Shown here piece after piece: positions 22,355 through 38,263 of a stretch of 64,000 bases of DNA. This DNA is from Desulfobacteraceae bacterium (GTDB lineage Bacteria; Desulfobacterota; Desulfobacteria; Desulfobacterales; SKZT01), in the NCBI GenBank assembly GCA_011389745.1, contig JAABTQ010000012.1, forward strand, positions 1-64,000, given 5' to 3'. The translations under genes were made by a program, and so were the position numbers. The stretch's first letter is position 1. Every line of letters starts with the position of its first letter. The notes beneath the pieces were generated by a model. That model worked only from the letters and a program-made list of their open reading frames with translations, was not told the origin of the DNA and did no database searches.

Positions 22355-23758
22355 TCAGGACCTGAAAGGATCGGCTTTGATGTCATAGCGCCTCATAATT
22401 TGCTGAAGTGCCTGACGTTCAAGCCCGCAAAGCTTTGCAGCATGGGTGACATTTCCATCGCAAATTTTCAGATAATGTCCTATATATTGGCCATTAAACC
22501 TTTTTAGGATTTCTTCTTTGGCTGTTTTATAAGGCTTTTCCTCAATGCCGATATTTGCTGCCGTGTCAGATCGGACTTCTTTTTTAATCCCCACATCCCG
22601 AGGTTTGATTTCATCTGTGGTGGAAAAAAGAATACCCTGAAGAATCACATTTTCCAACTCACGAATATTCCCTTCCCAGGTTCTTTTTAGAAAAATGTCC
22701 ATAAGTTCCGCGGAAATTTTTTTTATTGGTTTGTTAAGATCCTCACAGTGTTTTTCCAGCAAATGGTTTGCAATAATCGGTATATCTTCTTTTCTCCGGC
22801 GAAGAGGAGGCAACTCGATAGGCAACACATTAATCCGGTAATAAAAATCCTCTCTGAATTGACCGATCCTTATTTTTTCTTTGAGGTTCTGGTTGGTGGA
22901 AGATATGATTCGAACATCCACATGAATGGATTTTGTATCACCCAAAGGTTTAATTTCTTTTTCCTGAAGAACCCGCAGAAGTTTGGTCTGAATGGCAGGG
23001 GTGACATCACCGATTTCATCCAGAAAAATACTTCCCTGGTCGGCCTCTTGAAAAAGGCCGATTTTGTTGGTTGTGGCATGGGTAAAAGCCCCTTTTTTGT
23101 ACCCGAAAAGTTCACTTTCCAGGATATTTTCGGGAACTGTGGGACAATTGACCGCCACCCAGGGTTTATCCCTGCGGGAACTCAGGGCATGAATTGCTCG
23201 TGCGGTCAGATCTTTTCCCGTGCCTGATTCACCGGTAATTAAAACCGTGAGATCATTTTTGGCAACCATCCGGATTGTCTCGTAAACACGCTGCATGGCT
23301 GTGGACTTGCCTACCATGTCCTGAAATGTGGCATGCCCCCGGCAAGCTTTCTGGAGTCTTTGATTTTCCTTGAGCAAAGTGCTTCTTTCCAGAGCTTTTT
23401 CCATCCGAAGCACAAGTGCATCGTGATCAAAAGGCTTTGTGATAAAGTCGTATGCCCCGCTTTTCATCGCCTCAACAGCAGAGTCTATACTTCCGAAAGC
23501 CGTCATCATAATCACGGTTTGATCATAAGATTTTCTTTTGATAATTTCCAAAAGTTCAAGACCGTCCATGCCGGGCATTTTTATATCCATGAGCACAAGG
23601 TCAAAATGATTTTCATTATAAATTTTGAGAGCTTCTTCCGCAGAAGAAGCGGTAGTGACATGGCATTTCAGGTCCGGTTCCAGACTCCGTTTTAATAACA
23701 TGAGCATGTCTTTTTCATCATCTACGACCAATATGCTTCTGCTTATTATGTTCATCAC
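22355..23758 (-). CDS. sigma-54-dependent NtrC-family response regulator
   Basis: 467 residues: receiver (about 8-120, phospho-Asp in LVLMDIKMP), AAA+ domain (about 145-375) and a Fis-type helix-turn-helix (about 420-460, HAAKLCGLERQALQQ). Walker A is GESGTGKD and Walker B is SIFLDEIGD. The sigma-54 contact loop reads GAFTHA rather than GAFTGA. The kinase gene ends two bases upstream, forming one operon. The sigma-54 promoter at 25789 is the obvious candidate target. Ready to act on phosphorylation by the linked kinase. Confidence 0.95.
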   Translation of the reverse strand: MMNIISRSILVVDDEKDMLMLLKRSLEPDLKCHVTTASSAEEALKIYNENHFDLVLMDIKMPGMDGLELLEIIKRKSYDQTVIMMTAFGSIDSAVEAMKSGAYDFITKPFDHDALVLRMEKALERSTLLKENQRLQKACRGHATFQDMVGKSTAMQRVYETIRMVAKNDLTVLITGESGTGKDLTARAIHALSSRRDKPWVAVNCPTVPENILESELFGYKKGAFTHATTNKIGLFQEADQGSIFLDEIGDVTPAIQTKLLRVLQEKEIKPLGDTKSIHVDVRIISSTNQNLKEKIRIGQFREDFYYRINVLPIELPPLRRRKEDIPIIANHLLEKHCEDLNKPIKKISAELMDIFLKRTWEGNIRELENVILQGILFSTTDEIKPRDVGIKKEVRSDTAANIGIEEKPYKTAKEEILKRFNGQYIGHYLKICDGNVTHAAKLCGLERQALQQIMRRYDIKADPFRS

Positions 23759-23760
23759 AA

Positions 23761-24864
23761 TTAGGTATTGATTGGTAAAACTACTGTAAATGTAGTCTCT
23801 TGCCCGGGTTCGCTTTTCACAAAGATGTGTCCGCCATGGTTTTTAATGATGCCGTAACCGACTGAAAGTCCTAACCCGGTTCCTTCTCCTGTGGGTTTGG
23901 TTGTAAAAAAAGGGTCAAAAATGCACGATAAATTTTTCTGCTCAATGCCGTACCCCGTATCCCTGACTTCAATAATAACCTGTTTGTCATCAGAGCAATA
24001 CCGGGTTGAAATCGTTATGGTTCCATTTTGACCAACCGCATGCCTGGCATTCATGGTCAAATTCATGATCACCTGACGGATTTTTTTTTCATCCAGAAAC
24101 ATGGACGGAATACTTTGATCATAATCCCTGATAATCTGAATTTTTTCAAGTTTAGAATGTTGCTGAATAAAAGAGACCACATCTTCTATTACATCATTTA
24201 ACCTTACCACATCTTGAGATGGCTTGGAAGTTCGCGCAAAGTTCAGCAAATCTTCCACGATTGATTTGCAGGTGCGAACATGCTTTTCAATGGTTTTGAG
24301 ATCCTGGTATTTTTCGGATTCAGGATTTTCTCCCCTCATTAAAAGTTGTGTATACCCAAGAATAATACCCAATGGGTTATTGATCTCATGGGCAATTCCT
24401 GAAGAGAACTGCCCTATTGAAGCCAGTTTATCCGCCTGTGACATCTGATGTTCCATCATCTTTCGCTGGTCGATATCCCTGGCCAGGTTGTGTGCGGATT
24501 CGATAGCTTGTTTGTCCGATAAAATTTGTTCATATATTTTCCAGCTTCTTTCAAAATAAAGGGTAAAAGATCCGACAGCTATAAACATCAGGGTGTTTAT
24601 GGATCCGCTCAATGGACGAATAAATTCCCAAACTTTTTGATATTCAGCCATTAGCAGTAAATGTTTTAACAAATGGCCTGCCGAACGGGAAATGGCAAAT
24701 CCCGCAATGGCAAAACAAACCCAATAGAGATAAATCCATATAACATTGCTGGAATCCCGTGTTCTAAGGATGGCCACCTGGTGAATGCATGCAAAGGCCA
24801 GAAAAATCATTGATATGGAGCCGATAACATCAACAATGACAATAGGTGTGCCTGATATAATCAT
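23761..24864 (-). CDS. membrane-bound sensor histidine kinase
   Basis: 367 residues. The N-terminal ~130 residues hold about four hydrophobic segments with little periplasmic domain, so sensing may be in or near the membrane, or through the partner protein encoded just upstream. The cytoplasmic part has HisKA with SSGIAHEINNPLG and a HATPase with MNLTMNARHAV, DTGYGI, FTTKPTGEGTGLGLS. Its start overlaps the stop of the upstream membrane-protein gene by four bases, and the regulator gene follows by two bases, so the three form a tightly coupled sensing operon. Confidence 0.93.
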   Translation of the reverse strand: MIISGTPIVIVDVIGSISMIFLAFACIHQVAILRTRDSSNVIWIYLYWVCFAIAGFAISRSAGHLLKHLLLMAEYQKVWEFIRPLSGSINTLMFIAVGSFTLYFERSWKIYEQILSDKQAIESAHNLARDIDQRKMMEHQMSQADKLASIGQFSSGIAHEINNPLGIILGYTQLLMRGENPESEKYQDLKTIEKHVRTCKSIVEDLLNFARTSKPSQDVVRLNDVIEDVVSFIQQHSKLEKIQIIRDYDQSIPSMFLDEKKIRQVIMNLTMNARHAVGQNGTITISTRYCSDDKQVIIEVRDTGYGIEQKNLSCIFDPFFTTKPTGEGTGLGLSVGYGIIKNHGGHIFVKSEPGQETTFTVVLPINT

Positions 24865-25325
24865 CGAAGACCTTCCTCCGTTGATTTTTCGGTTTCAGCG
24901 ACCAGCCTTTTTAATCCTAAAAGAAGAAATAAGAGAGCCGGCACGCAGATAAGATGGTCCAGCCTGGCAACATAGTAAGTTATTCCGGCCCATTTTCCCA
25001 AAGAAGATGACACTTTGATCTGCCAGGTGCTGATTTTTTCCACCGTTATTAGCATGGCCTGCTCATCTAAAAAATGAACAAGCATGACGTTTACATTCCA
25101 TAAAATAAAGAAAAAGGCGGCGTACTGAATATATCTCCAGCCGGTGTGCCTGGCGAGTTTTCTTTGTCTGAGCCAATATATGAGAATCACCATGGACAAC
25201 ATGAAAAAAAGGTGTGCAAACTGGTGAGCATATATGCCTTCAGGATCACCATGAGCCTGGGTGGCCAATGCTGTGCCCGTAAAAGGCAAAAAACATATTA
25301 TAATTAAAAATAACAGGATCTTCAT
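24861..25325 (-). CDS. small histidine-rich membrane protein, possible sensor accessory subunit
   Basis: 154 residues from the ATG at 25325, preceded by CGGAG; a longer frame to 25382 lacks a site. A signal sequence (about 1-20, ending TALATQA) is followed by about three further membrane segments. Histidines cluster in AHGDPEGIYAHQFAHLFFM, with more in LVHFLDEQ and RLDHLICVP, next to or within membrane segments. This could bind metal or heme, but no known motif is complete. The four-base overlap with the kinase gene implies a shared job, perhaps delivering the signal. Family not recognised. Confidence 0.75.
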   Translation of the reverse strand: MKILLFLIIICFLPFTGTALATQAHGDPEGIYAHQFAHLFFMLSMVILIYWLRQRKLARHTGWRYIQYAAFFFILWNVNVMLVHFLDEQAMLITVEKISTWQIKVSSSLGKWAGITYYVARLDHLICVPALLFLLLGLKRLVAETEKSTEEGLR

Positions 25326-25536
25326 TTTTTCTCCGATAAATGAAAAGTCCATGATTGGATAGGCTTGCGACGAAATATGCAAAATATGTTCCTGTAATAA
25401 ACCCCTAAGACACAGGGGATTTCCTTTTGGTTCAAATTAAGGACAGCACTTGCGCGCCATGGATTATGATGATGATGATGATTATTTTAAACCAATTGCT
25501 TTTTGGGATATAAAAAATTGCGGATTCAGGGAAAAA

Positions 25537-25788: not shown

Positions 25789-25804
25789 TGGCACATGATT
25801 TGCT
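25789..25804 (+). promoter_or_regulatory. sigma-54 promoter for the exporter/redox operon
   Basis: TGGCACATGATTTGCT matches the -24/-12 consensus TGGCAC-N5-TTGC(A/T) at every specified position, with GG and GC ten bases apart. Transcription should begin near 25815, about 80 bases before the exporter start at 25894. The sigma-54 activator gene at 22355-23758 lies on the other side of the same region, so regulation by it is a strong inference. Confidence 0.85.
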
Positions 25805-25893: not shown

Positions 25894-27066
25894 ATGATAC
25901 AGAAAAAAAGAGTTGTTTTAACCTTGCTGTTGATGTCATTCCTGATTGCAGCGCCATTGATGTTTTCGGATGTTGCTTTTGCCGACAACTTGAGCGAAGC
26001 CATATCAAAGGCGCCCGTGGGTACTGAAAAAGGGCAAATCGATCCAACAGCGGAGCCGGGATATCTGGGAATACCGGGTGGGCTCCAGGTTAATTTACTG
26101 GTGGGTTTTTTGTGGGCTGTCTGGGTCGGCTGGATATTTTCCACTGTAGGTGCTTTTGGGGGCATCATGGCGGGTGTGGGACACATTACTATCTTTGGTA
26201 TCGGAAAACATGCCGGAGAATTCAGGGAAACCGCGCCCATGCTCAACAAGGTCATTACCGATTCCGTGAGGGTGTCCAACCAGTTTTTGGTGGGGATGAG
26301 CGCTTTGATTTCATCTTTTAACTACTACCGTATGGGACGCCTGGTACTGCCTTTGGGGCTCGCATTGGCTTTTGGGTCCATGTTCGGAAGCTACCTGATT
26401 CCCTGGCTTACAGCCGGAAAAATCAGCTTCAAGGCATACATCGGCTATTTTGGTATTTTTGTTCTGGCTTTAGGATTTGTGATGTTGTATGAAACAACAC
26501 CCAAGGGCAGGGCCGGCAAGAAAAAAGCCAAACAGGCCGCCGATGCTTTTGAAACCACCATGCGCCGCCAGCGAAGCGGCGAAAAGGTCGACACAAGCCA
26601 GTTGGGAGTAAAAGTCACCGGCATTACCGCCACACGCTTCACCTTTACCTTTTACGGGGTCGAGTTTTCATTCAATCCCTTTTATCCGGTTCTCGGTGGT
26701 TTTGTTATCGCGGCTATTTCTTCTTTTATCGGTGTGGGCGGCGGTTTTCTGCTTGTTCCTTTTTTGACCAGCATTTCAGGCCTTCCCATGTACCTGTCCG
26801 CCGGAACTTCCGCATTTGCCGTACTGGTAGGCATGATCGTAAGTATCTTCAGCTATTTACAACAAGGTGTCATTGTCCATTGGCCTTTGATCGGTATCGA
26901 ACTGGTCGGTATTGTTGTGGGTTCCATCATTGGTCCGCGTACCTCCAAGTATATCCCCGATCTCTGGCTGAAGAGACTGTTTATTATTCTGGCATTTTAT
27001 GTCGGTATCGACTATGTATGCAGAGGCTTTCTCGGCAAAGGAATAATAGCGCTTTTTGGATTATAA
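25894..27066 (+). CDS. TauE/SafE-family membrane exporter
   Basis: 390 residues from the ATG at 25894 (TTTGGAGG upstream). A cleavable-looking signal sequence (about 1-31, ending VAFADN) precedes two TauE-type bundles: one about residues 60-205 and one about 270-385. They are separated by a ~60-residue lysine/arginine-rich cytoplasmic loop (GRAGKKKAKQAADAFE). The repeated glycine-rich GAFGGIMAGVGH and SFIGVGGGFLLVPFL segments mark the family. Members move sulfite, sulfoacetate or other small sulfur/carboxylate anions. As the first gene after the sigma-54 promoter, it probably handles a substrate or product of the redox enzymes downstream. Confidence 0.88.
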   Translation: MIQKKRVVLTLLLMSFLIAAPLMFSDVAFADNLSEAISKAPVGTEKGQIDPTAEPGYLGIPGGLQVNLLVGFLWAVWVGWIFSTVGAFGGIMAGVGHITIFGIGKHAGEFRETAPMLNKVITDSVRVSNQFLVGMSALISSFNYYRMGRLVLPLGLALAFGSMFGSYLIPWLTAGKISFKAYIGYFGIFVLALGFVMLYETTPKGRAGKKKAKQAADAFETTMRRQRSGEKVDTSQLGVKVTGITATRFTFTFYGVEFSFNPFYPVLGGFVIAAISSFIGVGGGFLLVPFLTSISGLPMYLSAGTSAFAVLVGMIVSIFSYLQQGVIVHWPLIGIELVGIVVGSIIGPRTSKYIPDLWLKRLFIILAFYVGIDYVCRGFLGKGIIALFGL

Positions 27067-27073
27067 AACCAAA

Positions 27074-27103
27074 AGCCCTGGTGGTATTTTTTCCATCAGG
27101 GCT
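27074..27103. terminator. hairpin after the exporter gene
   Basis: AGCCCTG (27074-27080) and CAGGGCT (27097-27103), extended by TGG/CCA, form a stem around a T-rich loop. The following bases on + are GAAAAAA, not a T run, so it may be an RNA-stabilising or partial attenuating hairpin rather than a full terminator. Confidence 0.4.
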
Positions 27104-27244
27104 GAAAAAATTCATCCATTCCGAGGAATACGGATTTAACCAACTGAGAACCCATTATCCGAACCGTCTGAGAAGTATCCAGGGTAGTTCCGATCATTTT
27201 GTCGCTGCCCTTTTGCCTTTTGCAGTAACAGGGGAGAGAATCCA

Positions 27245-27850
27245 ATGAAAATTTTATATGCTGTCTATGACTGGATGGATCCCCTGCTGATTTTTTTTTA
27301 CCGGTTGCCGGAAAATCCGGTGGCGGGTTTTTTTCTGGGAACCTTTTTTCTGTGTTTGCTTTGCGTGATCATTGGTGAGATAACCATCATCACCATGTAC
27401 CGTTTGAATAGAAAATATTACAGAAAACTTAAAAAAGAAACCGTCAGGATGCACAATCTTTCCATAAAAGCCATCCTGGCCAAGGATAAAGACAGCTATC
27501 GGGCCTGCAACCGACAAGCGAATGAGGCATTTGGACGTTATTTTTTTGCTCAGCTCGGTCTGGGAGCTTCAGGCCTGTGGGCGCTTCCATTTGCCCTGGG
27601 CTGGATGAGCCAGCGATTTCATGATGTTTCCATGGATCTGTTTTTTTCCCTTCCCGGCATCGGTAAGACCATGGGCTATATCCCCATTTTTATTTTAAGC
27701 TATATACTGGTGAGAATCCTTTTCGGCAAATTAAAACCATGGTTACCCTGGGTGTACCGTTTTGACTTTCGCCGTGAAACAGACAATGAAGGTGAAAAAA
27801 TGGTCAGTTGGACAGATGTTGAAAAACATGGAGGCTTTCCTGATCGCTAA
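27245..27850 (+). CDS. small integral membrane protein linked to the exporter
   Basis: 201 residues; ATG at 27245 with GGGGAGAG upstream. It has a hydrophobic segment near 30-55, a basic, probably coiled cytoplasmic stretch (about 55-95), then two membrane segments near 100-120 and 145-165. The pattern of one segment, a basic helical loop and a later segment pair loosely recalls the DUF106/YidC-like insertase fold, but I see no diagnostic motif and do not assign it. Its place between exporter and oxidoreductase suggests an operon-specific role. Confidence 0.7.
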   Translation: MKILYAVYDWMDPLLIFFYRLPENPVAGFFLGTFFLCLLCVIIGEITIITMYRLNRKYYRKLKKETVRMHNLSIKAILAKDKDSYRACNRQANEAFGRYFFAQLGLGASGLWALPFALGWMSQRFHDVSMDLFFSLPGIGKTMGYIPIFILSYILVRILFGKLKPWLPWVYRFDFRRETDNEGEKMVSWTDVEKHGGFPDR

Positions 27851-27923
27851 TGCCTCACAGAGATCGCAGGTTTGACGAAAATTCCGAATTTGGTTATGCT
27901 GTTAAAAATACGGAGGAAAAATA

Positions 27924-30008
27924 ATGAATAAAGAAGTTTACAGCTTATGTTTCATGTGTTCGATCAGATGCCCGATTCGGGTGCTGGCCAAAGACGGACA
28001 GGTGGAATGGATCGAAGGAAATCCGCATGTGCCCGGCATGGAAGGAAGTCTGTGTCCTCGCGGGTCAGCCGGAATTTCATTGCTCTATGATCCGGAAAGG
28101 GTTCAGACTCCCATGATCAGGGTCGGTGAGCGCGGTTCGGGTAACTGGCGTAAGGCAAGCTGGGATGAAGCCCTTGATTTTGTTGCCGATAAACTTAAGG
28201 ATATTATCGAAAAAAACGGACCTCACAGTATTGTTTTGGGAGAGCGTACCCAGTTGGCTACCCATGTCAGTAAAACCTTTTTGAAAGCCCTGGGTTCACC
28301 CAATCATTTTACTCATGACGCACTGTGCAAAGGATCGGTCAACACCGCATGCCGGTCGTTGTTCGGATACACCGATGCGCAGATGGCCATGGACTATAAA
28401 AACACCAAACATATTGTTTTGTACGGAAGAAATATTTTCGAAGCTGTTTCGGTCAAAGAAGTCAACAACTTAATGGATGCGCTGGAGAACGGTGCGAAAC
28501 TGACCTACATCGATCCCAGGGTGACCGTGACAGCTACAAAAGCTCACCGGTACTGGATGATTCGTCCCGGCACCGACCTGGCCCTGAATTATGCCCTGAT
28601 CCATGTGATTTTAAAAGAACGACTGTATGATGCCGACTTTGTTGATCGATGGGTGAGTGATATGGCCGACCTCCGGGAGTTTGTGGCTTCCTATACACCC
28701 GAATGGGCTGAAAAGGAAACCGGTATTCCCGCAGATGAAATCGTAACCCTTGCCCGCGAGATGAGCAAGGATAAGCCGTCGGTTATTTTTCACTTTGGAT
28801 ATCGCGGAGCCAATCAGGTCAACGAGATATACATTCGAAGATCGATCCTGATACTCAATTGTCTCATGGGTTCCATAGAAACAAAAGGCGGTCTGTTTTT
28901 CAAAAAAGGTCCTGGTGAAGTGGGGGGAAAGCCCGCCAGAAAACTGACCGAACAGCAGTTTGACACAAAAATCGAGGTACCCCGGTTCGATAAGGTGGGA
29001 ACAAAAGATTTCCCGCTACCCGACCCCAACCATGGCGCTCCGCAGATGCTTCCGCAGGCCATCTTAAATGAAGATCCATATCCGATCAAAGCTTTGATCA
29101 ACTACCGGTTCGAGCCGCTCATGTCCATTCCCGACACGACCACCACCTTAAAGGCTTTGGACAAGCTGGATTTGATTGTGACCATCGATATCAATTACAG
29201 CGATATTGCCTGGTACTCGGATGTGATACTGCCGGAAAGCATTTATCTTGAGCGGACCGATTGTGTACAACAAGCCAATGGTCTGAAACCTCAGATATTT
29301 CTGAGGCGACAGGTGGTGGCACCCCGTTACGATACCAGGGAAGGTGCCATGATTCTTAAACAGCTGGCCGAAAAATTAGGCATCAGCAAATATTTCCCCT
29401 ATGAGAGCATGGAAGACCTTGTAAAATGGCAGCTGGAAGGCACCGGATTTGCCCTGGAGGATTTTGATAAAAAAGGTTTTGTGGCCTATTGCAAGGACCC
29501 AATTTTCTGGGATCGCACCAAGTTGAAAATAAAAACGCCTTCGGGTAAAATCGAGCTTCGTTCTTCACTCCTCGAAAATGCGGGGTTCTCATCCTTTCCA
29601 GAGTATGAGCCCATACCGAAACCGGAAAAAGATCATTTCAGGTTGGTTACCGGACGATGTGCATTACACACCCATTGTTCCACCCAGAATAACCCATATC
29701 TCAATGAGCTTCTTTCTGAAAACAGGCTTTGGATAAATTCCCAAAAAGCGGCGGAATTGGGGATTTCAAATAACGCCATGGTGGAGATTTCTTCAAAAAG
29801 AGGCTCCGGAATCATCAAAGCATCCGTGACCGAGCTAATTCATCCGGAATCGGTTTTCATGCTCCACGGATTCGGCCATCAGGCCAAACGGGCTACCCGA
29901 TCTTACAACAAGGGGGTTTCAGACAGCCTTCTGGAGGAAAACGTATCGGATATGGTTGGTGGAAGCCCTGCATTTCACGAAACATTTGTCAAAGTCAAAG
30001 CTGCATAA
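27924..30008 (+). CDS. cytoplasmic molybdopterin oxidoreductase (PhsA/PsrA-like catalytic subunit)
   Basis: 694-residue DMSO-reductase-superfamily enzyme. The N-terminal [4Fe-4S] site is C-x2-C-x3-C (LCFMCSIRC) with a fourth Cys in SLCPRG. A cysteine in HDALCKGSVN is a candidate Mo/W ligand, as in thiosulfate/polysulfide reductases. Molybdopterin-binding blocks follow, such as YIDPRVT and RPGTDLAL, with a C-terminal dinucleotide-binding domain near residue 575 on. No twin-arginine signal is present, unlike periplasmic PhsA/PsrA, so it should work in the cytoplasm. The ferredoxin subunit gene follows. The substrate is not determinable; a sulfur oxyanion or polysulfide fits the exporter. Confidence 0.88.
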   Translation: MNKEVYSLCFMCSIRCPIRVLAKDGQVEWIEGNPHVPGMEGSLCPRGSAGISLLYDPERVQTPMIRVGERGSGNWRKASWDEALDFVADKLKDIIEKNGPHSIVLGERTQLATHVSKTFLKALGSPNHFTHDALCKGSVNTACRSLFGYTDAQMAMDYKNTKHIVLYGRNIFEAVSVKEVNNLMDALENGAKLTYIDPRVTVTATKAHRYWMIRPGTDLALNYALIHVILKERLYDADFVDRWVSDMADLREFVASYTPEWAEKETGIPADEIVTLAREMSKDKPSVIFHFGYRGANQVNEIYIRRSILILNCLMGSIETKGGLFFKKGPGEVGGKPARKLTEQQFDTKIEVPRFDKVGTKDFPLPDPNHGAPQMLPQAILNEDPYPIKALINYRFEPLMSIPDTTTTLKALDKLDLIVTIDINYSDIAWYSDVILPESIYLERTDCVQQANGLKPQIFLRRQVVAPRYDTREGAMILKQLAEKLGISKYFPYESMEDLVKWQLEGTGFALEDFDKKGFVAYCKDPIFWDRTKLKIKTPSGKIELRSSLLENAGFSSFPEYEPIPKPEKDHFRLVTGRCALHTHCSTQNNPYLNELLSENRLWINSQKAAELGISNNAMVEISSKRGSGIIKASVTELIHPESVFMLHGFGHQAKRATRSYNKGVSDSLLEENVSDMVGGSPAFHETFVKVKAA

Positions 30009-30057
30009 CAGGCCCCCCGAGCATAACAATGCAGTCTTCTTCATTTGGAGGATTATA

Positions 30058-30576
30058 ATGAGTAAATACTTTCTATTTCAGGATACCAAAAAGTGCATTG
30101 GATGCCATTCCTGTGAAATTGCATGCAAAAGCAGTAAGTCGCTTCCACTGGGCCCCAGGATTTGTCAGATCGTCGAGGTCGGCCCTAAATTTATCGGAGG
30201 GCTCCCCCGGGCTTCTTATGTATTCATGCCCTGTTTTCACTGTGAAGATCCGTGGTGTGTTGCAGCCTGTCCCACAGGAGCAATGCAAAAACGCTCTAAA
30301 GACGGGATCGTATCTGTGGATCCGGCCTTGTGTGTCGGATGTAAATCCTGCATTTCCGCCTGCCCGTGGGGAGCTCCCCAATGGAATCCCGAGACCGGAA
30401 AAGTTGTCAAGTGTGATTATTGCAAAGACCGGGTAGACCAGGGTTTAAAACCGGCCTGTGTGACCATTTGCACATCTCACTGCCTTCATTTCGGCAGAGT
30501 TGAAGATATGACCCAGATTCGCAGGCAACGTCACGCCAGGACCGTTGCAGCCCTGGAGCACAGCCATCTTGGTTGA
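30058..30576 (+). CDS. DmsB/PhsB-like four-cluster ferredoxin subunit
   Basis: 172 residues; ATG at 30058 with TTTGGAGGATT upstream. Cysteine groups typical of DmsB/PsrB subunits are visible in order: CIGCHSCEIAC, CFHCEDPWCVAACP, CVGCKSCISACPWG and CDYCKDR...CVTIC, enough for four [4Fe-4S] clusters. It is the expected electron-transfer partner of the upstream molybdopterin subunit. No membrane anchor gene of the DmsC/NrfD type is present, so electrons probably pass to the flavoprotein encoded next. Confidence 0.92.
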   Translation: MSKYFLFQDTKKCIGCHSCEIACKSSKSLPLGPRICQIVEVGPKFIGGLPRASYVFMPCFHCEDPWCVAACPTGAMQKRSKDGIVSVDPALCVGCKSCISACPWGAPQWNPETGKVVKCDYCKDRVDQGLKPACVTICTSHCLHFGRVEDMTQIRRQRHARTVAALEHSHLG

Positions 30577-30604
30577 TAGTCATTAAGCACAAAGGAGTGG
30601 TTTT

Positions 30605-32743
30605 ATGAACAGGTGCCCGGTCAACGAAACCATCAAAGGACTTGAAAAATCCATCGAGTCAGGCGCCTTGAAAGATCCCCGGCTTCGGCGAATCGGCGAG
30701 GAAATTCTGGAGCTAATGCAGGATGTGGCATGGGGACGCGCCGGCAAGGATCATATTCCGGCTATCCATAACCTTTCTCAAACTATTTCAGAAGATGCCG
30801 GGGACAATGAAGCTAAGCAGGTCGGACAGATGGTGGCATCTGCCGTCAAAGAGCACAAGGAAATTTTTAACAGCCATGTTGATACCCACAATTGTGCGAC
30901 AGGAGACTGTGTTCGTCTTGCTCCCGCACCTTGCCAAATGGCCTGCCCCGCCGGAATCGATGTTCCGACTTATGTTTCTTTAATCGGCATGGGCCGCGAT
31001 GCCGAAGCCATCGAGGTCATCAGAAAGGACAATCCGTTTCCCTGGGTATGCGGGCTTGTTTGCACCAGGCCCTGCGAGTTCATGTGTGTTCGCGGAAGAA
31101 TCGACAAGCCCGTTTCCATTAAGTTTTTAAAAGCTTTTGCTGCGGAAAAAGCGCTTTCGGATCGTGAATATAAAAATCCCGAAAAAGCTCCTGATAAAAA
31201 CAAAAAAGTCTGTGTTATCGGTGCAGGCCCCGGAGGGATGAGTGCGGCATATTTTCTGGCATTAAAAGGTTATCAGGTCAGGGTACTGGAAGCTCAGCCG
31301 GTGGCCGGTGGTATGATGATGCTGGGTATTCCCCGGTATCGCCTTCCAAGGGAAGTGATTGACCGTGAAGTCGCCATGATTGAAGACCTGGGTGTTGAAT
31401 TTCGGTTTAATACCCGATTTGGCAAAGATGTGACCATGGACCAGCTCAGAGCCGAGGGTTTTGAAGCTTTTTTCTTTGCAATCGGCGCACATAAAGCCTT
31501 TAACCTGAATATTCCGGGTGAGAAAGATTTTCCCCAGGTTGTGGAAGCCATTGATCTGTTAAGAAAAGTGGCTTTAGGAGACCGGAAAGCGCCGGGAAAG
31601 CGCGTGGTGGTTATCGGCGGCGGCAATGTGGCCATAGATACCGCCAGAACCAGTCTTCGCCTTGGAAGCGAAGAGGTCATTATTGCTTACCGACGCACCC
31701 GCCATGAGATGCCTGCGGATATCGAAGAAGTTGAACAGGCCGAGGAAGAAGGCATCCGCTTTTCATTTTTAACAATTCCCGTTGAAATTGTCGGAGAAAA
31801 CGACAAACTCTCGGGTCTGAAATGCCTTCGCGCCGACCTGGTGGCCAAGGAAGGAAGCAACCGGAAAATTCCCGTACCTATGCTTGGAAGTGATTTTCTG
31901 ATGGAGGTCGATTCGGTCATTTGCGCTATCGGCCAGCGGGTCGACCATGAGTGTATGGAGAGCGTTCCCGATTTGAAATGGTCTCGCCGGACAACCATCG
32001 ATGTCGATATGGCCAGCATGGAAACCTCGATAGCCGGTGTATTTGCCGCAGGCGATGCGGTTACTGGGCCGGCAACGGCTGTTGAGGCCATCGGAGGCGG
32101 TAAAAGAGCGGCAGAGGCTATTGACAGGTATCTTTCGGGCATACCTCAGCCCAAAATGCCTCCTCTTCCGGTTCGCCGAAAACGTGTCGACTGGCTCGAA
32201 GTTCCGGCTGCCACAAAAATGGTGCTTAAGAAACCTGAAATGCCATTGCTGAATATCGAACGACGCCGAACCACATTCCAGCAGGTGGAACTGGGATATT
32301 CAGAAAACCAGGCCCGTGAGGAGGCACGAAGGTGTCTCAGGTGTGATATTTGTCTGAGATGCGGAAAGTGTGTGGAAATCTGCCGTGATAAAATGGAAAT
32401 CAATGCACTGAAGTTTGGTTATCTTGATTTTGATCACCCGGTGGAGACGGATTTCAGGGTCACTGAAGAAAAGTGTATTCTGTGCGGTGCCTGCGCTGCC
32501 AACTGTCCCAACAATGCCATAAAAATTGAGGATCGAAAAGGAGAACGGGTGCTGAACATGTGCGGTACGATCCTTAACCGCCAAAAACTTCTATATTGCG
32601 AATCCTGTGGCGCTGTGATCGGCCCGGCGAGATATCTTGATTTTGTTAATGGAAGGCTTAACACGCTCACACCCAAAACCGGAAAAGAAAGACTCTGTGA
32701 AGTCTGTGCCCGAAAAAAATCGGCTAAGGCTTTAGGTAGTTAA
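30605..32743 (+). CDS. GltD/NfnB-like FAD-dependent NAD(P) oxidoreductase with extra Fe-S and CxxC modules
   Basis: 712 residues. After a ~100-residue N-terminal region come the Fe-S segment APCQMACPAGIDVPTYV and CGLVC...CEFMC, as in the glutamate synthase small subunit. An FAD fold follows (VIGAGPGGMSAAY), then an NAD(P) fold (VVIGGGNVAIDTAR) and the FAD-closing GVFAAGDAV. The C-terminal part carries two ferredoxin-type clusters (CLRCDICLRCGKCVEIC and CILCGACAANCP) and a final CxxC pair (CESCG, CEVC). It likely couples NAD(P)H to the ferredoxin and molybdopterin subunits. The start has AAAGGAGTGG upstream. Confidence 0.9.
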   Translation: MNRCPVNETIKGLEKSIESGALKDPRLRRIGEEILELMQDVAWGRAGKDHIPAIHNLSQTISEDAGDNEAKQVGQMVASAVKEHKEIFNSHVDTHNCATGDCVRLAPAPCQMACPAGIDVPTYVSLIGMGRDAEAIEVIRKDNPFPWVCGLVCTRPCEFMCVRGRIDKPVSIKFLKAFAAEKALSDREYKNPEKAPDKNKKVCVIGAGPGGMSAAYFLALKGYQVRVLEAQPVAGGMMMLGIPRYRLPREVIDREVAMIEDLGVEFRFNTRFGKDVTMDQLRAEGFEAFFFAIGAHKAFNLNIPGEKDFPQVVEAIDLLRKVALGDRKAPGKRVVVIGGGNVAIDTARTSLRLGSEEVIIAYRRTRHEMPADIEEVEQAEEEGIRFSFLTIPVEIVGENDKLSGLKCLRADLVAKEGSNRKIPVPMLGSDFLMEVDSVICAIGQRVDHECMESVPDLKWSRRTTIDVDMASMETSIAGVFAAGDAVTGPATAVEAIGGGKRAAEAIDRYLSGIPQPKMPPLPVRRKRVDWLEVPAATKMVLKKPEMPLLNIERRRTTFQQVELGYSENQAREEARRCLRCDICLRCGKCVEICRDKMEINALKFGYLDFDHPVETDFRVTEEKCILCGACAANCPNNAIKIEDRKGERVLNMCGTILNRQKLLYCESCGAVIGPARYLDFVNGRLNTLTPKTGKERLCEVCARKKSAKALGS

Positions 32744-32748
32744 GGTTT

Positions 32749-32796
32749 AAAATCCCCCGGCCCTCTTTGCCAAAGGGGGATTTAGGGGGATTTTTC
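32749..32796. repeat. dispersed GGGGGATTTAGGGGGATTT-type hairpin repeat
   Basis: AATCCCCC, then CCTCTTTGCCAAAGG, then GGGGATTTAGGGGGATTTTT form nested hairpins followed by a short T run, so it may also act as a terminator or processing site within the operon. The same family recurs at 48487-48579 and 56854-57032. Confidence 0.75.
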
Positions 32797-32842
32797 TTAA
32801 GTTATGGCATCGATTTAAAAAACAAAACTAAGGAGCAAATCC

Positions 32843-33058
32843 ATGGTAATATTTCGAAAAGGCCGGCGAGTCGCCATTTTTAGAAAATCCGATGATGAAG
32901 CGTGGGAAAGTTACATGGATTCTTTCATCGGCTCACACGGAATCATTACTGATCCGGACACGACCAAAAACGACCCTGATGATCTCGTGGAAGTTTCCGT
33001 GGATGGTAAGGGCACCCACAGGTTTCCGCAGGATAGTTTGAAAGTGCTTGAAGATTAA
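32843..33058 (+). CDS. small hypothetical protein, 71 residues
   Basis: Not recognised. It starts with ATG at 32843 after AAGGAG and has a short basic beta-hairpin-like N terminus (VIFRKGRRVAIFRK), then an acidic middle (DPDTTKNDPDD) and a beta-strand end. No cysteines, no membrane segment. It overlaps nothing and sits between the flavoprotein and CBS genes, 31 bases before the latter, so it is probably part of the redox operon. Function unknown. Confidence 0.6.
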   Translation: MVIFRKGRRVAIFRKSDDEAWESYMDSFIGSHGIITDPDTTKNDPDDLVEVSVDGKGTHRFPQDSLKVLED

Positions 33059-33089
33059 TCGATCACCCATAGTTGCCGGAGTTGATACA

Positions 33090-33539
33090 ATGAATATTTC
33101 TCAGTTGTTAAAAAAACACGGCAAACATGTGCATACTGTTTCCAGGGATTGCAGTGTGGTCGATGCCATCGAAAAAATGACACTCACCAAATCCGGTGCT
33201 TTAATTGTAATGGAAAATGACCATCCAGTGGGAATTTTTACCGAACATGATGTTTTTCGCTGCCACATTGTGGACAAAACCGGTTTATTTTCCGATATGA
33301 AAGTTGCCGATGTGATGAGCCAAAATCTGATTTTTGCTTCACCCGATGAAAGTAGCGGTCATGCGTTAAACAGAATGCTTAATGCGCAAATCCATCATCT
33401 GCCCGTGGTCGAATCGGATAAAATTTCAGGAGTGCTGTTGATTAATGATATTATCAGACAGCACATGGAAGCATTGAACGCTGAACTGCAATATCTGCAC
33501 GAATACATCTTACGGCTCCAGGATGCCGGTAATGACTGA
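33090..33539 (+). CDS. CBS-pair domain protein
   Basis: 149 residues from the ATG at 33090 (CCGGAG upstream). Two CBS motifs fill the protein: one with VSRDCSVVDAIEKM...GIFTEHD and one with MSQNLIFASPDES...GVLLINDI. CBS pairs bind adenine nucleotides, S-adenosylmethionine or NAD(P)H and act as energy or redox sensors. No enzyme domain is attached, so it may tune the neighbouring oxidoreductase. Its last bases overlap the Fe-S gene downstream, indicating coupling. Confidence 0.88.
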   Translation: MNISQLLKKHGKHVHTVSRDCSVVDAIEKMTLTKSGALIVMENDHPVGIFTEHDVFRCHIVDKTGLFSDMKVADVMSQNLIFASPDESSGHALNRMLNAQIHHLPVVESDKISGVLLINDIIRQHMEALNAELQYLHEYILRLQDAGND

Positions 33540-34365
33540 TCAGCCGCCAAAAGGACTGAAAATCATGAACCCTTCACCATCATCGGAAAGTGAACCCATT
33601 GAAATTATAGTCAATGGTAAGCTCTACCCGGCCGACCCTCATATGACGGTCCTGGAAGCACTGAAATCAAACAATTTTGATATACCGACCCTGTGTTTTC
33701 ACCCATCGCTGAGACCATCCGGAGCCTGCCGGTTATGTGTTGTGGAAATGGCTGCAAAGTCAGGAAAAGCTATCGCCATGCTCTCATGCATTCTTCCGGT
33801 CAAAAATGGTCTGGAAATCAAAACCCAGGGCGAATTGGTGAAACAGTCCAGAGTCCGTGCTTTTGGGAATATGATTCAAATGGCCCCCCAGTCCCGGAAA
33901 ATTCGTGATCTGGCAGAGAACTACGGGATCGATCTGGGTCCCCCACCGGATGGTTGCATACGATGCCGCCTTTGTATTCGTGTCTGCAGAGAAATTGTCG
34001 GGCCAAGGGCTTTAAAAATGGAAAAAAGGAAAGGAACCGGTTTCGTGGTTCCTATACCCGATGCCTGCATCGGGTGCGGTACATGCGCCAACCTTTGTCC
34101 AACCCAGGTCATCAAAGTCGAAGATATAGATAATGTCCGTACCATATCAATCCGTGATGAAGTCATCGGACGTCATCCATTGGAAACCTGTGAAGGCTGC
34201 GGAAAACGCTTTGCAACACCCAAATTTTTAAAACATATCGCCGAACGCACAGCACCTCATCCGGATGTGAAATTGCACCACCGATATTGCCCGACTTGTT
34301 CCAAGCTTTTTTCAGACCGGATTAAATCCTTTACAAATCTTAAGGAACGCATGATTATCCATTGA
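33532..34365 (+). CDS. HoxU/NuoG-like [2Fe-2S]/[4Fe-4S] protein with C-terminal CxxC module
   Basis: 277 residues; start ATG at 33532 behind CAGGATG (an ATG at 33523 is in frame too). The N-terminal plant-type ferredoxin fold has cysteines in PTLCFHP, GACRLC and MLSC. The middle has two ferredoxin-like clusters, CIRCRLCIRVC and CIGCGTCANLCP, the arrangement of hydrogenase HoxU or NuoG N-terminal parts. The C terminus has two CxxC pairs, CEGCG and CPTC, resembling the tail of the flavoprotein at 30605. It is a likely electron link between NAD(P)H and the molybdopterin enzyme, but no flavin NuoF-type partner is in the window. Confidence 0.85.
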   Translation: MTDQPPKGLKIMNPSPSSESEPIEIIVNGKLYPADPHMTVLEALKSNNFDIPTLCFHPSLRPSGACRLCVVEMAAKSGKAIAMLSCILPVKNGLEIKTQGELVKQSRVRAFGNMIQMAPQSRKIRDLAENYGIDLGPPPDGCIRCRLCIRVCREIVGPRALKMEKRKGTGFVVPIPDACIGCGTCANLCPTQVIKVEDIDNVRTISIRDEVIGRHPLETCEGCGKRFATPKFLKHIAERTAPHPDVKLHHRYCPTCSKLFSDRIKSFTNLKERMIIH

Positions 34366-34374
34366 AGAGGGAAA

Positions 34375-34971
34375 ATGGAAATTTTAGCCATTTACGGAAG
34401 CCCCAGGAGAATAGGAAATACCTCGACACTTCTGGATCATGCAGTTAAAGGGGCCGAAGACGCCGGCGCCCTGGTTGACAAAATCGTATTAAGAGACTGC
34501 AAAATGTCTCCCTGTCTTGAAATATACGGGTGCAAAAAAACAGGGCGTTGTGTCATTAAAGACGACTTTCAGGAAGTTATTGACAAATTGCTCTCCTGCA
34601 AAGGCATCATGCTGGCCTCCCCTATCTTTTTCTACACTGTAAGCGCGCATACAAAGATCCTCATGGACCGGTGCCAATCCCTGTGGGTAAAAAAATATTG
34701 GGTTGATCAAACACCTTACAGAAAAACCATTTCCTCCAGAAAGGGGCTTTTCATTTCAGCTGGTGCCACAAAAGGAAAAAAGCTTTTTGACGGCACTCTG
34801 CTGACCGTAAGATATTTTTTCGATGTTTTGGATATAGATCTCTGGAAATCACTTCTGTATCGTCAACTCGATTTTGAACAGGATATTCTAAAGCACCCCG
34901 AATATCTTCATGAAGCATATGAAACCGGAAAAGAATTCGCTCTGGCGACAAAAAAGAGTCAATCATCATAA
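34375..34971 (+). CDS. NADPH-dependent FMN reductase/flavodoxin-fold protein
   Basis: 198 residues. The N-terminal FMN phosphate-binding loop is IYGSPRRIGNTSTLL, followed by the second conserved strand segment ASPIFFYTVSAHTK that holds the isoalloxazine ring. Cysteines near 40-58 (CKMSPCLEIYGCKKTGRC) match the iron-sulfur-flavoprotein/multimeric-flavodoxin subgroup, though the spacing is not diagnostic. It begins 9 bases after the Fe-S gene and is the last gene of the redox operon. The next gene is convergent and overlaps its stop by six bases. Confidence 0.85.
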   Translation: MEILAIYGSPRRIGNTSTLLDHAVKGAEDAGALVDKIVLRDCKMSPCLEIYGCKKTGRCVIKDDFQEVIDKLLSCKGIMLASPIFFYTVSAHTKILMDRCQSLWVKKYWVDQTPYRKTISSRKGLFISAGATKGKKLFDGTLLTVRYFFDVLDIDLWKSLLYRQLDFEQDILKHPEYLHEAYETGKEFALATKKSQSS

Positions 34972-35967
34972 ATCATAATCAACACCGCGAATCACTTCTA
35001 CCCCTGATGCGGCCATCTCCCGGACTGCGGATTCAACCGAAGACAATCCCCCAAACATGTCTGATCGCCGGTAGTTCTCTAAGCGTGCACCGCATATGCT
35101 CAGGTCTGCAACAACCCGTAAGTTTTTGCTTTTGAAAAATGTCAGGGTCTCGATTGCAGACACCCTCACACAGGAATTTAAGGTGCATCCTCCCATAACC
35201 AATATGTTTTTACCTTTTTCCATAACTCGCTCCACCCATTGCCGGTAACCGTTAGTGGGCGGAAACAGAATGCTGTTTCCCGGTTTGATGAAATAAAGCT
35301 GCATTGGGTCAATTATTCCTTTGAAATGGTCATCCCAATCATAGCTATCGGGCGGAAAAGGACATCTGGAAAACATGGTCTCGATTACATTGCCATATTG
35401 ACGGATAAACTGTGCACAATGTTTGAAGCCCGATTCAATTAATCGGATGTCCTGTTGAGCTTGTGAACCGATAGATTTCATCCATGCGCCCTTTGTAAAA
35501 GAGCGCTGAGGGTCGATAATCAGCAAAGCTGAATCTTCGGGATGAATCCTTGCGAAATCAAGAGTGCCCAAAAGCTTTTTATAATCATCGGCAGTACCCC
35601 TGCCTGCTGATTGTTCTAAAATCTGTATAATTTGATTTTCAGTATTTTTTTGCAGGATATTTTCTTTTTTGCTTTTTTGAGGAAAAAAGTTTTCAGCAAC
35701 GGATTTAGTGAGCAATGAATCGTATTTTACATTCAAAAGCACACTGCCATAAGGCCCATAGGAATCTTTGGAAATTTGATCCATAAAAGAATTGAATGTT
35801 TTTCGAGAAATGGGGCAAAGCAGGGTCAAAAGATCAAAAACGGCGAAAAAAGAGGCTTCATGCCAGTGCCAGCCCATCTGTTTTGCGGCACGATGAAGCT
35901 CTTTTCTCGAAAGTTTTTCATCCCGGTCAAGATCAAGTATGTCAAAAAGCTCATTAAATTCCATCAT
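34966..35967 (-). CDS. EF-hand/isochorismatase-family hydrolase fusion
   Basis: 333 residues from the ATG at 35967, chosen because a longer frame would run into the subtilase gene. The N terminus carries one EF-hand loop with Ca-ligand spacing, DLDRDEKLSRKE; a second hand is weak. From about residue 145 there is an isochorismatase-like cysteine hydrolase: Asp in LLIIDPQRSF, Lys in FIKPGNS and nucleophile Cys in GGCTLNSCVRVSA, so the triad is complete. The family includes nicotinamidases and other amide or enol hydrolases; the substrate is unknown. Calcium control of a cytoplasmic hydrolase is the unusual inference. Confidence 0.82.
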   Translation of the reverse strand: MMEFNELFDILDLDRDEKLSRKELHRAAKQMGWHWHEASFFAVFDLLTLLCPISRKTFNSFMDQISKDSYGPYGSVLLNVKYDSLLTKSVAENFFPQKSKKENILQKNTENQIIQILEQSAGRGTADDYKKLLGTLDFARIHPEDSALLIIDPQRSFTKGAWMKSIGSQAQQDIRLIESGFKHCAQFIRQYGNVIETMFSRCPFPPDSYDWDDHFKGIIDPMQLYFIKPGNSILFPPTNGYRQWVERVMEKGKNILVMGGCTLNSCVRVSAIETLTFFKSKNLRVVADLSICGARLENYRRSDMFGGLSSVESAVREMAASGVEVIRGVDYDL

Positions 35968-35986
35968 CCAATCTTGCTGTGGTTTT

Positions 35987-38263
35987 TTACCACACACCTG
36001 CCACAGGCAGATCACCCGAAAACCCGAAAGGCCCTAAACAGAAATCGATTCCACAACCATCCCAGGTACCATTACCAGTATCCAGATACCACATGCCTGT
36101 ACCGGAACGATACACACCAATCGTTGTTTGCCCGGTATTGGTCCAGTCCCCGGCAACAGGAATATCACCTGATGAGCCAAAAGGCCCTATGCACAGATCG
36201 GTTCCACAACCATCCCACTTGAAATTACCATCATCCAGATACCACATCCTTGTACCTGGACGATACACACCAATCGTTGTTTGCCCGGTATTGGTCCAGT
36301 CCCCGGCAACAGGAATATCACCTGATGAGCCAAAAGGCCCTATGCACAGATCGGTTCCACAACCATCCCACTTGAAATTACCATCATCCAGATACCACAT
36401 CCTTGTACCTGGACGATACACACCAATCGTTGTTTGCCCGGTATTGGTCCAGTCCCCGGCAACAGGAATATCACCTGATGAGCCAAAAGGCCCTATACAC
36501 AGATCGGTTTCACAACCATCCCAGATGCCATTACCATTATCCAGATACCACATCCCTGTACTGGGACGATACACACCAATCGTTGTTTGCCCTGATTTGG
36601 TCCAGTCCCCGGCAACAGGAATATCACCCGATGAGCCAAAAGGCCCGCTAATGCACAGATCGGTTCCACAACCATCCCAGATGCCATTACCATTATCCAG
36701 ATACCACATCCCTTTGCTGGGACGGAATACCCCGATTCTTGATTTATCTTGCCCATCCCATTGTCCTGCGACCGGCAAGTCGCCTGGTGAGCCAAATACT
36801 CCCCAACACCCATCAGGACCACATCCACTCCAGGTTCCATTCCCATCCAGATCAATATACCATCTCCCTGTATTTGGCCGAAACACGCCGATTACTGGAT
36901 CGCTGACAGGGCTAATAAATGAATTCAGAGCCTGATTAATACGGATTCGAGGTGTGGTGACGCTGTTTGTACCGGTGATCGGTAAACCAGTTGTTTTCAA
37001 GGCACTGAGCACCAAATCAACGGTAGCTGACGGAGTCTTTTGTTTCATAATTGCCCAGGTACCGGCCACATGGGGAGTTGCCATCGATGTACCACTTTTC
37101 AACCCAAACCCTCCACCTGGAATCGATGAATTAATAGATTGGCCTGGAGCCAAAAGTGATAAAAAGGACGCTGAATTTGAGAAGCTAGAAACCTGATCGG
37201 TTTTGGAAGTAGATCCGACACTCACAGCCGAGGAAATGCAGGCAGGAAAGCTAATAGCACTTGAGTAACCATTGTTACCGGAAGCAGCAACCAGTGCAAT
37301 TTCACCAGACCGAAGATAATCAATAGCAGCCTTTGCAGATGGGCTTAAAGTATCACAAAATGCCTGGAAACCACCTACACCGAGGCTCATGTTGGCAGCG
37401 GCTATCTGAAAAGAACTGCGCAAATTATAGACATGCATGAGTGCGGCAATCCAATCAGAAGTGTATGTCAAAGCACATGGATCTTCCGCATCACCGCAAA
37501 TATCGCCGGTAAACTCAGAGAAAACCTGAATAGCGATGATGTTTGCTCCTTTTGCAACCCCGGAAAAAGATGACCCACTTCCTGCAGCAATCCCTGCCAC
37601 ATGGGTGCCATGCGTGCACGAGCCTGCTGCATAGGTACACGGAATGCCGGCTCCGGAACCGATCTGCGTAATCTCTCCATTGGGACAATTCCCGTTACCC
37701 GAAAAACAAGCTTCCGCCACTACTTTGCCGGACAGGAATGGATGGGTTTTATCCACGCCGGTATCCAGAACAGCTACTGTCCAACCATTTCCATCAAAAC
37801 CTTTTGCCCAGGCCTGATGGCCTTCCACTATCGGTACGCTTTCGAATAACATTGGTGAAGACAAACGATCTTCCTCCACACTTATAACAAGCCCGGATTG
37901 TTCCACCGCGGCTAAAGCCTGAATTCCTGCTTCAAGGGCCACGAATGGAATGGTTTCGAACCGGCGGGTAATCCGATAGTTTGTACTGCGCAATTCTTGA
38001 AGAAGCCGGTCCTGTGCCGTTGTGATTCCTTTGCGCTGGGATGCAACCGCCAGGGAATTTATCAAATTACCCTCCGCCTTAAACGGTACGCTAACTTGCA
38101 CGATCACTCGGACTGATCCTTCTTTTTGGGCTTTCAGAATCAACTGGTCAGAAACGACCGGAATCGAAATGTTCTGAGATACTGCATTGACTGCCCAGAA
38201 AACCCCTATGAAGGCGAGAAAAAAACTCCATCGTTGCCAGGCCGATCTCCATGTTAGTCTCAT
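35987..38263 (-). CDS. secreted subtilisin-like protease (S8) with C-terminal repeats
   Basis: 758 residues. A signal sequence (about 1-28) is followed by an I9-type propeptide (about 45-135, VRVIVQV...FETIPFVALEA), then the S8 domain with Asp167 (AVLDTGVD), His218 (HGTHVAG), oxyanion Asn330 (AASGNNG) and Ser393 (GTSMATP). From about 455 to the end are six ~51-residue repeats of the form GVYRP.TGMWYLD.GNG.WDGC and GDIPVAGDW. The repeats resemble calcium-binding FG-GAP/beta-propeller-like blades and probably form a surface or substrate-binding domain. The upstream gene encodes a free propeptide-like protein. Confidence 0.93.
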   Translation of the reverse strand: MRLTWRSAWQRWSFFLAFIGVFWAVNAVSQNISIPVVSDQLILKAQKEGSVRVIVQVSVPFKAEGNLINSLAVASQRKGITTAQDRLLQELRSTNYRITRRFETIPFVALEAGIQALAAVEQSGLVISVEEDRLSSPMLFESVPIVEGHQAWAKGFDGNGWTVAVLDTGVDKTHPFLSGKVVAEACFSGNGNCPNGEITQIGSGAGIPCTYAAGSCTHGTHVAGIAAGSGSSFSGVAKGANIIAIQVFSEFTGDICGDAEDPCALTYTSDWIAALMHVYNLRSSFQIAAANMSLGVGGFQAFCDTLSPSAKAAIDYLRSGEIALVAASGNNGYSSAISFPACISSAVSVGSTSKTDQVSSFSNSASFLSLLAPGQSINSSIPGGGFGLKSGTSMATPHVAGTWAIMKQKTPSATVDLVLSALKTTGLPITGTNSVTTPRIRINQALNSFISPVSDPVIGVFRPNTGRWYIDLDGNGTWSGCGPDGCWGVFGSPGDLPVAGQWDGQDKSRIGVFRPSKGMWYLDNGNGIWDGCGTDLCISGPFGSSGDIPVAGDWTKSGQTTIGVYRPSTGMWYLDNGNGIWDGCETDLCIGPFGSSGDIPVAGDWTNTGQTTIGVYRPGTRMWYLDDGNFKWDGCGTDLCIGPFGSSGDIPVAGDWTNTGQTTIGVYRPGTRMWYLDDGNFKWDGCGTDLCIGPFGSSGDIPVAGDWTNTGQTTIGVYRSGTGMWYLDTGNGTWDGCGIDFCLGPFGFSGDLPVAGVW
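35990..36901 (-). repeat. 153-bp in-frame tandem repeats in the subtilase gene
   Basis: The same segment begins at 36121, 36274 and 36427, giving an exact 153-base (51-codon) period; two neighbouring copies are nearly identical, while outer copies are diverged. About six units in all. Because the unit is a multiple of three, copy-number change keeps the frame. Confidence 0.9.

Follow-up and report, generated by a model that had tools for sequence, protein, structure and literature searches.

Pairs of a PhsA-like molybdopterin subunit and a ferredoxin that lack the membrane subunit PhsC have been annotated as thiosulfate reductase in the genomes and proteomes of sulfate reducers (PMC9751629, PMC4046663, PMC7117923). 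These anchor-less PhsAB pairs were described without functional analysis, and the source of their electrons was noted as a gap (PMC9751629). In Desulfolithobacter, the consecutive genes GF1_30490-30520 encode PhsA-1, PhsB-1, Nuo and NuoB, and thiosulfate-disproportionating cells were the only ones in which the Nuo proteins were found (PMC9751629). Here we analyse a related gene cluster on a 64,000-nucleotide stretch of contig JAABTQ010000012.1 from a Desulfobacteraceae bacterium (the whole stretch is referred to as the window). Its nine same-strand genes at 25894-34971 (+) include a PhsA/PsrA-like catalytic subunit (moA), a ferredoxin subunit (fdB) and a GltD-type flavoprotein (gltD). We tentatively propose, with slightly less than even confidence, that the cluster encodes an inducible, soluble, cytoplasmic and NADP(H)-linked PhsAB-type sulfur-oxyanion oxidoreductase, with thiosulfate reduction as its most likely function. 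The predicted cytoplasmic, anchor-less and NADP(H)-linked nature of the enzyme is well supported by its sequence, while complex formation, the substrate, the direction of the reaction and the cargo of the accompanying TauE transporter are what we infer from it.

The gaps between the nine genes are short (178, 73, 49, 28, 99, –11, –17 and 9 bp). Open reading frames and Pfam and NCBIfam matches agreed with the one-direction cluster and the gene identities that an earlier sequence-only reading had described, and to that gene list we add s71 and a divergent set of mem173, histidine kinase and sigma-54 response regulator genes (22355-25382). The window lies on contig C4 of the 3.6-Mb genome (G000) of a sulfate reducer in the Desulfobacterota, which has Desulfobacteraceae and Desulfosarcina as its nearest named relatives and carries dsrA on a separate contig (G000:C34).

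The catalytic pair

The moA gene (27924..30008, +) encodes a molybdopterin catalytic subunit with Molybdop_Fe4S4, Molybdopterin and Molydop_binding domains and a Cys ligand in the motif DALCKGS, and is followed by fdB (30058..30576, +) for a four-cluster DmsB/PhsB-like ferredoxin subunit (Fer4_11). Whereas the Tat-exported PhsA and PsrA proteins carry RRxFLK-type leaders, MoA starts with MNKEVYSLCFMCSIRC and has no Tat signal, just as the sequence-only reading had held, and is predicted to be cytoplasmic. The best family match of MoA was PRK15488 PhsA (3e-186; 620.7 bits, under the cut-off of 694) and its nearest solved structure was PsrA (2vpw, 1.6e-111), with far weaker matches to ArrA and DmsA/Ynf. 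The window therefore holds a Tat-less molybdenum subunit with a PhsB-like ferredoxin and no C subunit, as in anchor-less PhsAB pairs, and it departs from PhsABC in the PhsA cut-off, in the Tat signal and periplasmic location, and in the membrane subunit C.

The second NCBIfam match to MoA was the formate dehydrogenase alpha subunit (TIGR01591, 8.6e-82), and a Tat-less molybdenum enzyme of Thermosulfurimonas has been named Fdh (PMC4911364), both of which would suit a cytoplasmic NADP-linked formate dehydrogenase. The PhsA match scored 620 bits against 275 for Fdh, however, and we regard this assignment as highly improbable. The FdhF type in particular was rejected, as Lys (CKGS) and not His stands after the ligand Cys, and as no Arg is conserved in the region aligned to Arg333 of FdhF. 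The MOLY cluster (molyAB with a TorD-type molyC, Tat-exported; PMC12998232) was also rejected as an identity, the window cluster having neither a TorD gene nor a Tat signal.

In a tree of 101 sequences, built with a quick method and with long outgroup branches, the Tat-less proteins stood apart from the Tat-bearing PhsA/PsrA proteins with a support of 100, and the clade of the window protein (support 99) stood apart from a sister group at 38-53% identity. The motifs around the molybdenum site are nearly invariant within the window clade (CFMC, GERTQ/N, DA[LI]CKGS and H[FY]GYRG), and they differ both from those of the sister group (CGMC, SDRGGP, mostly C[AG]RN, and HPGWMxxRY) and from those of PhsA/PsrA. 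The window enzyme therefore constitutes a separate subfamily, to which existing names are not transferable without a test.

Conservation among sulfate reducers

A scan of species genomes yielded at least 576 related stretches, of which the best 80 were kept. Cultured species with an orthologue include Desulfosarcina widdelii, Desulfatibacillum alkenivorans and Desulfacinum hydrothermale. Gene context was counted over de-duplicated orthologous loci with at least 56% identity to MoA; these counts depend on the BLAST thresholds used, and the related loci entering them are not independent. The fdB gene directly follows moA in 96/97 orthologous loci, and gltD lies at most 8 kb downstream in 59 of 67. 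One of two types of TauE gene was found within 10.5 kb in 25/30 loci, which ties the exporter to the system as had been suggested. Among the 30 well-flanked loci, the kinase was near in 22, the regulator in 20 and mem173 in 18, while nuoG and s71 accompany 38 and 40 of 67 loci, respectively, and the CBS-domain gene 10 of 30. The absence of a DmsC/NrfD anchor also stood, with none in the cluster itself and an NrfD-like gene near only one of the 30 orthologous loci. This survey shows the gene set to be conserved together across sulfate reducers, thereby excluding the opposite outcome that the sequence-only reading had allowed for. Only the flavodoxin-fold (FMN_red) gene at its end (34375..34971, +; PF03358) had been counted as a member wrongly: because it is absent near all 30 well-flanked orthologous loci, it falls outside the conserved system and is probably an adjacent passenger.

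A strong MoA orthologue was present in 39 of the 395 genomes drawn from the phylum. The dsrA gene occurred in 38 of these 39 genomes as compared to 190/395 overall (Fisher p 3e-12, shared ancestry uncorrected), the single orthologue genome without dsrA being 80% complete, and these figures bear out the proposed connection with sulfur metabolism.

The electron module

The gltD gene (30605..32743, +) encodes a FAD and NADP(H) flavoprotein of the GltD/NfnB/DsrL type, matching profile PRK12771 above its cut-off; the C-terminal part of the protein has two 4Fe-4S sites, and its tail is rich in Cys. The protein carries GGGNVAIDAART together with a YRR motif that hardly varies, which agrees with the NAD(P)H-linked electron module inferred earlier; in DsrL-2 the YRR motif has been linked to NADP specificity (PMC7596348). 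Among solved structures, it is nearest to the GltD-bearing subunits of the Sporomusa-type Nfn, and the window thus has the GltD-type NADP(H) flavoprotein that characterises Stn/Nfn-type transhydrogenases. An identity as DsrL was rejected, as gltD adjoins moA and fdB and the dsrA gene of this genome is on another contig. Further downstream, a NuoG/HoxU-like electron-entry protein with 2Fe-2S and 4Fe-4S sites (33523..34365, +; Fer2_4 + Fer4_7) resembles HoxU, NuoG and HydA6.

Between these two genes, s71 (32843..33058, +) encodes a 71-residue protein with 20 invariant columns in 36 sequences. Its AlphaFold2 model (pLDDT 84.6) is an SH3-like barrel, for which the best fold matches were weak (PetP, 2n5u, E 4.8e-3; weaker still, the variable chain of FTR). 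PetP and the FTR variable chain are small subunits of redox complexes, and the simplest guess from the model is that s71 is likewise a structural subunit of the complex.

The partners of the catalytic pair vary among relatives. NuoE and NuoF genes are added in some loci (L015, L023, L029, L038 and L063), and in another (L081:12803-16201) GltD follows a NuoF-type domain (Complex1_51K, SLBB, NADH_4Fe-4S) in one fused protein. The N-terminal region of a further GltD (L080, aa 25-92) shows a partial NADH_4Fe-4S match, and to judge from such sequences the unfused GltD proteins may descend from a NuoF-GltD-like fusion. In the sister clade, 22 of 61 loci have a complex I of the 11-subunit type next to MoA-FdB, its subunits in L103 being confirmed by Pfam, and the MoA-FdB-Nuo order of these loci matches that of GF1_30490-30520 in Desulfolithobacter. 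This arrangement was seen in L100-L103, L106, L126-L131, L133, L136, L137, L155, L156, L167, L170 and L174, and with reversed gene order in L158, L165, L171, L217, L218, L225, L231 and L232, as if MoA-FdB were an electron-input or output module of complex I.

The NuoE and NuoF genes and the NuoF-GltD fusion of relatives would fit an electron-bifurcating or -confurcating machine of the Stn/Nso kind, in which NADPH together with NADH or ferredoxin drives the low-potential thiosulfate couple. However, Pfam and NCBIfam revealed no second pyridine-nucleotide flavoprotein (NuoF/NfnA domain) in the window cluster, and with NuoE and NuoF missing from the window locus, a second flavin site for pyridine nucleotides is missing as well. 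The NuoG-like protein might provide a site for ferredoxin, but bifurcation appears improbable to us. A broader proposal would see one modular family, whose single catalytic pair is mounted on GltD + NuoG, on NuoEF + GltD or on an 11-subunit complex I, and whose window clade, having an active site of its own, catalyses a reaction that has no assigned enzyme, such as the sulfite oxidoreductase step of sulfur disproportionation; as a whole we consider it unlikely.

Chemoreceptor genes were observed in the vicinity of some of these loci. A Desulfofundulus GltD has a signalling domain of the chemoreceptor (MCP) type at its C-terminus, and the next gene encodes a dCache-HAMP-MCP protein (L080:12652-17413), and MCP genes adjoin MoA-FdB in two further loci (L088:5319-6461 and L079:3679-5352). 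At the level of gene linkage, this suggests redox or energy taxis tied to the MoA-FdB enzyme.

Sigma-54 control and transport

A single sigma-54 promoter had been placed upstream of the cluster, and TGGCACATGATTTGCT (25789..25804, +) was indeed the sole full-score sigma-54 match in the window. Recurrence in related loci lifts this site above chance: within 450 bp upstream of the gene, good sites were found before tauE in 37/59 related loci (about 1.5 in shuffled sequence) and before moA in 62/110 (about 4 in shuffled sequence), and before the internal gene gltD in only 2/108. In several loci (e.g. L055, L071 and L203), tauE and moA are separately transcribed and each has its own sigma-54 site. 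Since such sites precede both the tauE and the moA units and not gltD, the transporter and the enzyme belong to one regulon.

The divergent genes upstream are part of the same system. They encode a sigma-54-dependent response regulator (22355..23758, –; Response_reg + Sigma54_activat + HTH_8), a membrane histidine kinase (23761..24864, –; HisKA + HATPase_c) and mem173 (24861..25382, –), a 173-residue membrane protein of no Pfam family that is probably the sensor partner of the kinase. The regulator presumably acts on the TGGCACATGATTTGCT promoter of the operon. In a number of loci (L081, L084, L189, L191-L195, L219-L221, L226, L228, L230 and L234-L236), the kinase/regulator genes are adjoined by a gene for a PhnD-like (phosphonate-type) periplasmic binding protein, a candidate oxyanion sensor.

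The first gene behind the promoter encodes a TauE/SafE (TSUP) anion transporter (25894..27066, +; PF01925, 1.2e-24), and the second encodes mem201 (27245..27850, +), a 201-residue membrane protein with a coiled-coil hairpin (AlphaFold2 pLDDT 92.8) whose family is conserved with TauE. A fold search with mem201 gave nothing at E ≤ 0.001; a weak EMC3/TMCO1 profile match was seen in a few of its relatives. A CBS-domain pair protein, presumably regulatory, is encoded at 33048..33539 (+; PF00571).

Substrate and direction

In the mechanism that we propose, the MoA/FdB pair, with its Mo-bisPGD cofactor, Cys ligand and four-cluster ferredoxin, would exchange electrons with the GltD-type flavoprotein and the NuoG-like ferredoxin rather than with quinone via an NrfD anchor. 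With NADPH as the driving donor, thiosulfate (or a close sulfane-sulfur oxyanion) would be reduced to sulfide and sulfite, and consumption of the sulfite by DsrAB would pull the reaction. TauE and mem201 would take substrate in, or let sulfite out upon build-up, while the divergent kinase and sigma-54 regulator would turn the system on and the CBS protein may gate it by nucleotide status. Nernst estimates gave about –0.35 V for NADPH and –0.23 to –0.33 V for thiosulfate under assumed concentrations, so that NADPH can by this estimate reduce thiosulfate when sulfite is kept low by DsrAB.

Indirect evidence for thiosulfate reductases of this kind comes from relatives or namesakes (PMC10989961, PMC4215793). 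In Desulfovibrio alaskensis G20, a PhsAB pair that may be only a namesake (Dde_1076/1075) had fitness values of –0.79/–0.30 on thiosulfate (PMC4215793), and the marked transcripts of Candidatus Desulfobulbus rimicarensis include PhsAB, NuoABCDHIJKLM and a TauE permease. The PhsA of Oceanidesulfovibrio marinus CS1 is thiosulfate-induced and raised H2S production from thiosulfate in E. coli. Our genome G442 is probably that of CS1, because its SQR gene (1.222 Mb) lies where the locus-tag spacing from phsA predicts; its only MoA-type match (42%, at 1.435 Mb) belongs to the sister clade. Taken together, these observations favour thiosulfate as the substrate in the sister clade, and the case is weaker for the window clade.

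Several points weigh against thiosulfate as the substrate in the window. The E. coli assay used the catalytic subunit by itself and a strain that produces H2S as background, and given the differing active-site motifs a thiosulfate activity would not be safely transferable to the window clade. Under standard conditions the thiosulfate couple (–402 mV) is more negative than NADPH, and TauE members are best known as exporters of sulfite or sulfonates, which by itself is a poor fit with a thiosulfate reductase. Finally, an orthologue is present in 35 of the 116 genomes of the order under a strict threshold (~30%), and the system is therefore an accessory and not a core part of sulfate reduction.

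This patchy distribution, the invariant active-site motifs peculiar to the window clade, the many substrates spanned by the PsrA-type family and the oxyanion-type PhnD-like proteins that accompany the kinase in several loci would all be consistent with NADPH-dependent reduction of another compound, such as polysulfide or sulfur, tetrathionate, selenate, arsenate or a sulfonate-derived compound. However, the near-exclusive occurrence in dsrA-bearing genomes and the linkage to TauE point to sulfur oxyanions, and the weakness of the ArrA and DmsA/Ynf matches relative to PhsA/PsrA also argues against it, making a different substrate rather unlikely though not negligible.

The main alternative is a cytoplasmic SoeAB-like sulfite dehydrogenase that oxidises sulfite to sulfate and passes the electrons to NADP+, or to complex I in the sister clade. 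TauE would then act as the classic sulfite exporter, and the sulfite/sulfate couple (–0.40 to –0.49 V under assumed conditions) can drive NADP+ reduction; such a low-potential donor also suits a complex I without NuoEFG. Sulfite oxidoreductase is furthermore listed as not predicted in the genomes of disproportionators, and the enzyme would be a candidate for the Desulfocapsa sulfite oxidoreductase activity that lacks an assigned gene. On the other hand, sulfite oxidation would undo the ATP-costly activation of sulfate in a sulfate reducer unless tightly controlled, and H2S formation from thiosulfate in E. coli has probably been obtained with a PhsA of the sister clade. We judge sulfite oxidation unlikely, and retain thiosulfate reduction as the tentatively preferred function. 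A SoeA reference was sought in plasmid records, where the matches proved to be PhsA, nitrate reductases, formate dehydrogenases and unrelated molybdenum enzymes.

Neighbouring genes

Downstream of the cluster, the window encodes a subtilase-family protease (35987-38263) that carries an array of near-identical repeats (GVYRPGTRMWYLDDGNFKWDGCGTDLCIGPFGSSGDIPVAGDWT) at its C-terminus. An open reading frame on the strand opposite to the cluster (34966-36015) has a weak EF-hand match and a C-terminal half that, judged by eye, is isochorismatase-like; it is not conserved together with the cluster. Scans of the 64-kb window for Rfam families and tRNAs gave no matches.

Comparison with known systems

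The turnover of thiosulfate and sulfite in sediments depends on enzymes that are named mostly by distant similarity, and a quinone-linked PhsC is usually assumed for sulfate reducers. If a soluble, NADPH- or complex-I-linked PhsAB exists as proposed, the energetics of thiosulfate reduction and disproportionation in these organisms would change, and the electron supply of the anchor-less PhsAB pairs in published genomes, the gap noted previously (PMC9751629), would be explained. The analysis names a testable gene set that is present in about a third of the sampled genomes of the order. In the open-access literature we found no description of a PhsAB-type pair with GltD/NuoG, NuoEF or an 11-subunit complex I. 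The enzyme pair is thus of a known type and its NADPH wiring seems undescribed, so that the "new system" of the sequence-only reading holds for the wiring and the distinct subfamily but not for the Mo/ferredoxin pair, already annotated as PhsAB without PhsC.

The Sporomusa-type Nfn (StnABC), Nso and NfnAB likewise combine a GltD-type NADP(H) flavoprotein with NuoE/F/G-type modules, and Nso of Thermococcus litoralis is described as an NADPH-dependent sulfur oxidoreductase (PMC7483475). However, these systems have no separate PhsA-type molybdenum subunit, whereas the window has no NuoE or NuoF. DsrL shares the GltD-like core, the YRR motif, a C-terminal Fe-S domain and a role in sulfur metabolism, but its partner is DsrAB, and classical deltaproteobacterial sulfate reducers do not have it (PMC7596348). 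SoeABC has in common a cytoplasm-facing molybdenum subunit with a ferredoxin and a sulfur oxyanion as substrate (PMC8076601), but uses the NrfD-type SoeC and quinone; the window cluster has no SoeC-like anchor, a distinction drawn at the level of subunit descriptions.

PhsABC and PsrABC (PhsA of Salmonella/E. coli; 2vpw of Thermus) share the catalytic fold, the Cys ligand and the B subunit, but their PhsA/PsrA proteins have Tat signals, are periplasmic and quinol-linked via the C subunit, are 35% identical to the window protein and differ in active-site motifs. Closest are the anchor-less PhsAB pairs of Desulfolithobacter (GF1_30490/30500; PMC9751629) and Desulfotignum (Dpo_3c03810/20; PMC4046663), loci that were equated with the present clades by gene order or genus rather than by sequence. 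Both consist of a PhsA-like subunit and a ferredoxin without PhsC, and their hosts, like that of the window, are sulfate-reducing or disproportionating. In contrast to these pairs, the window clade has active-site motifs of its own and a GltD and NuoG-like partner instead of complex I, and in the window these are joined by TauE, the SH3-like protein, the CBS protein and a sigma-54 switch.

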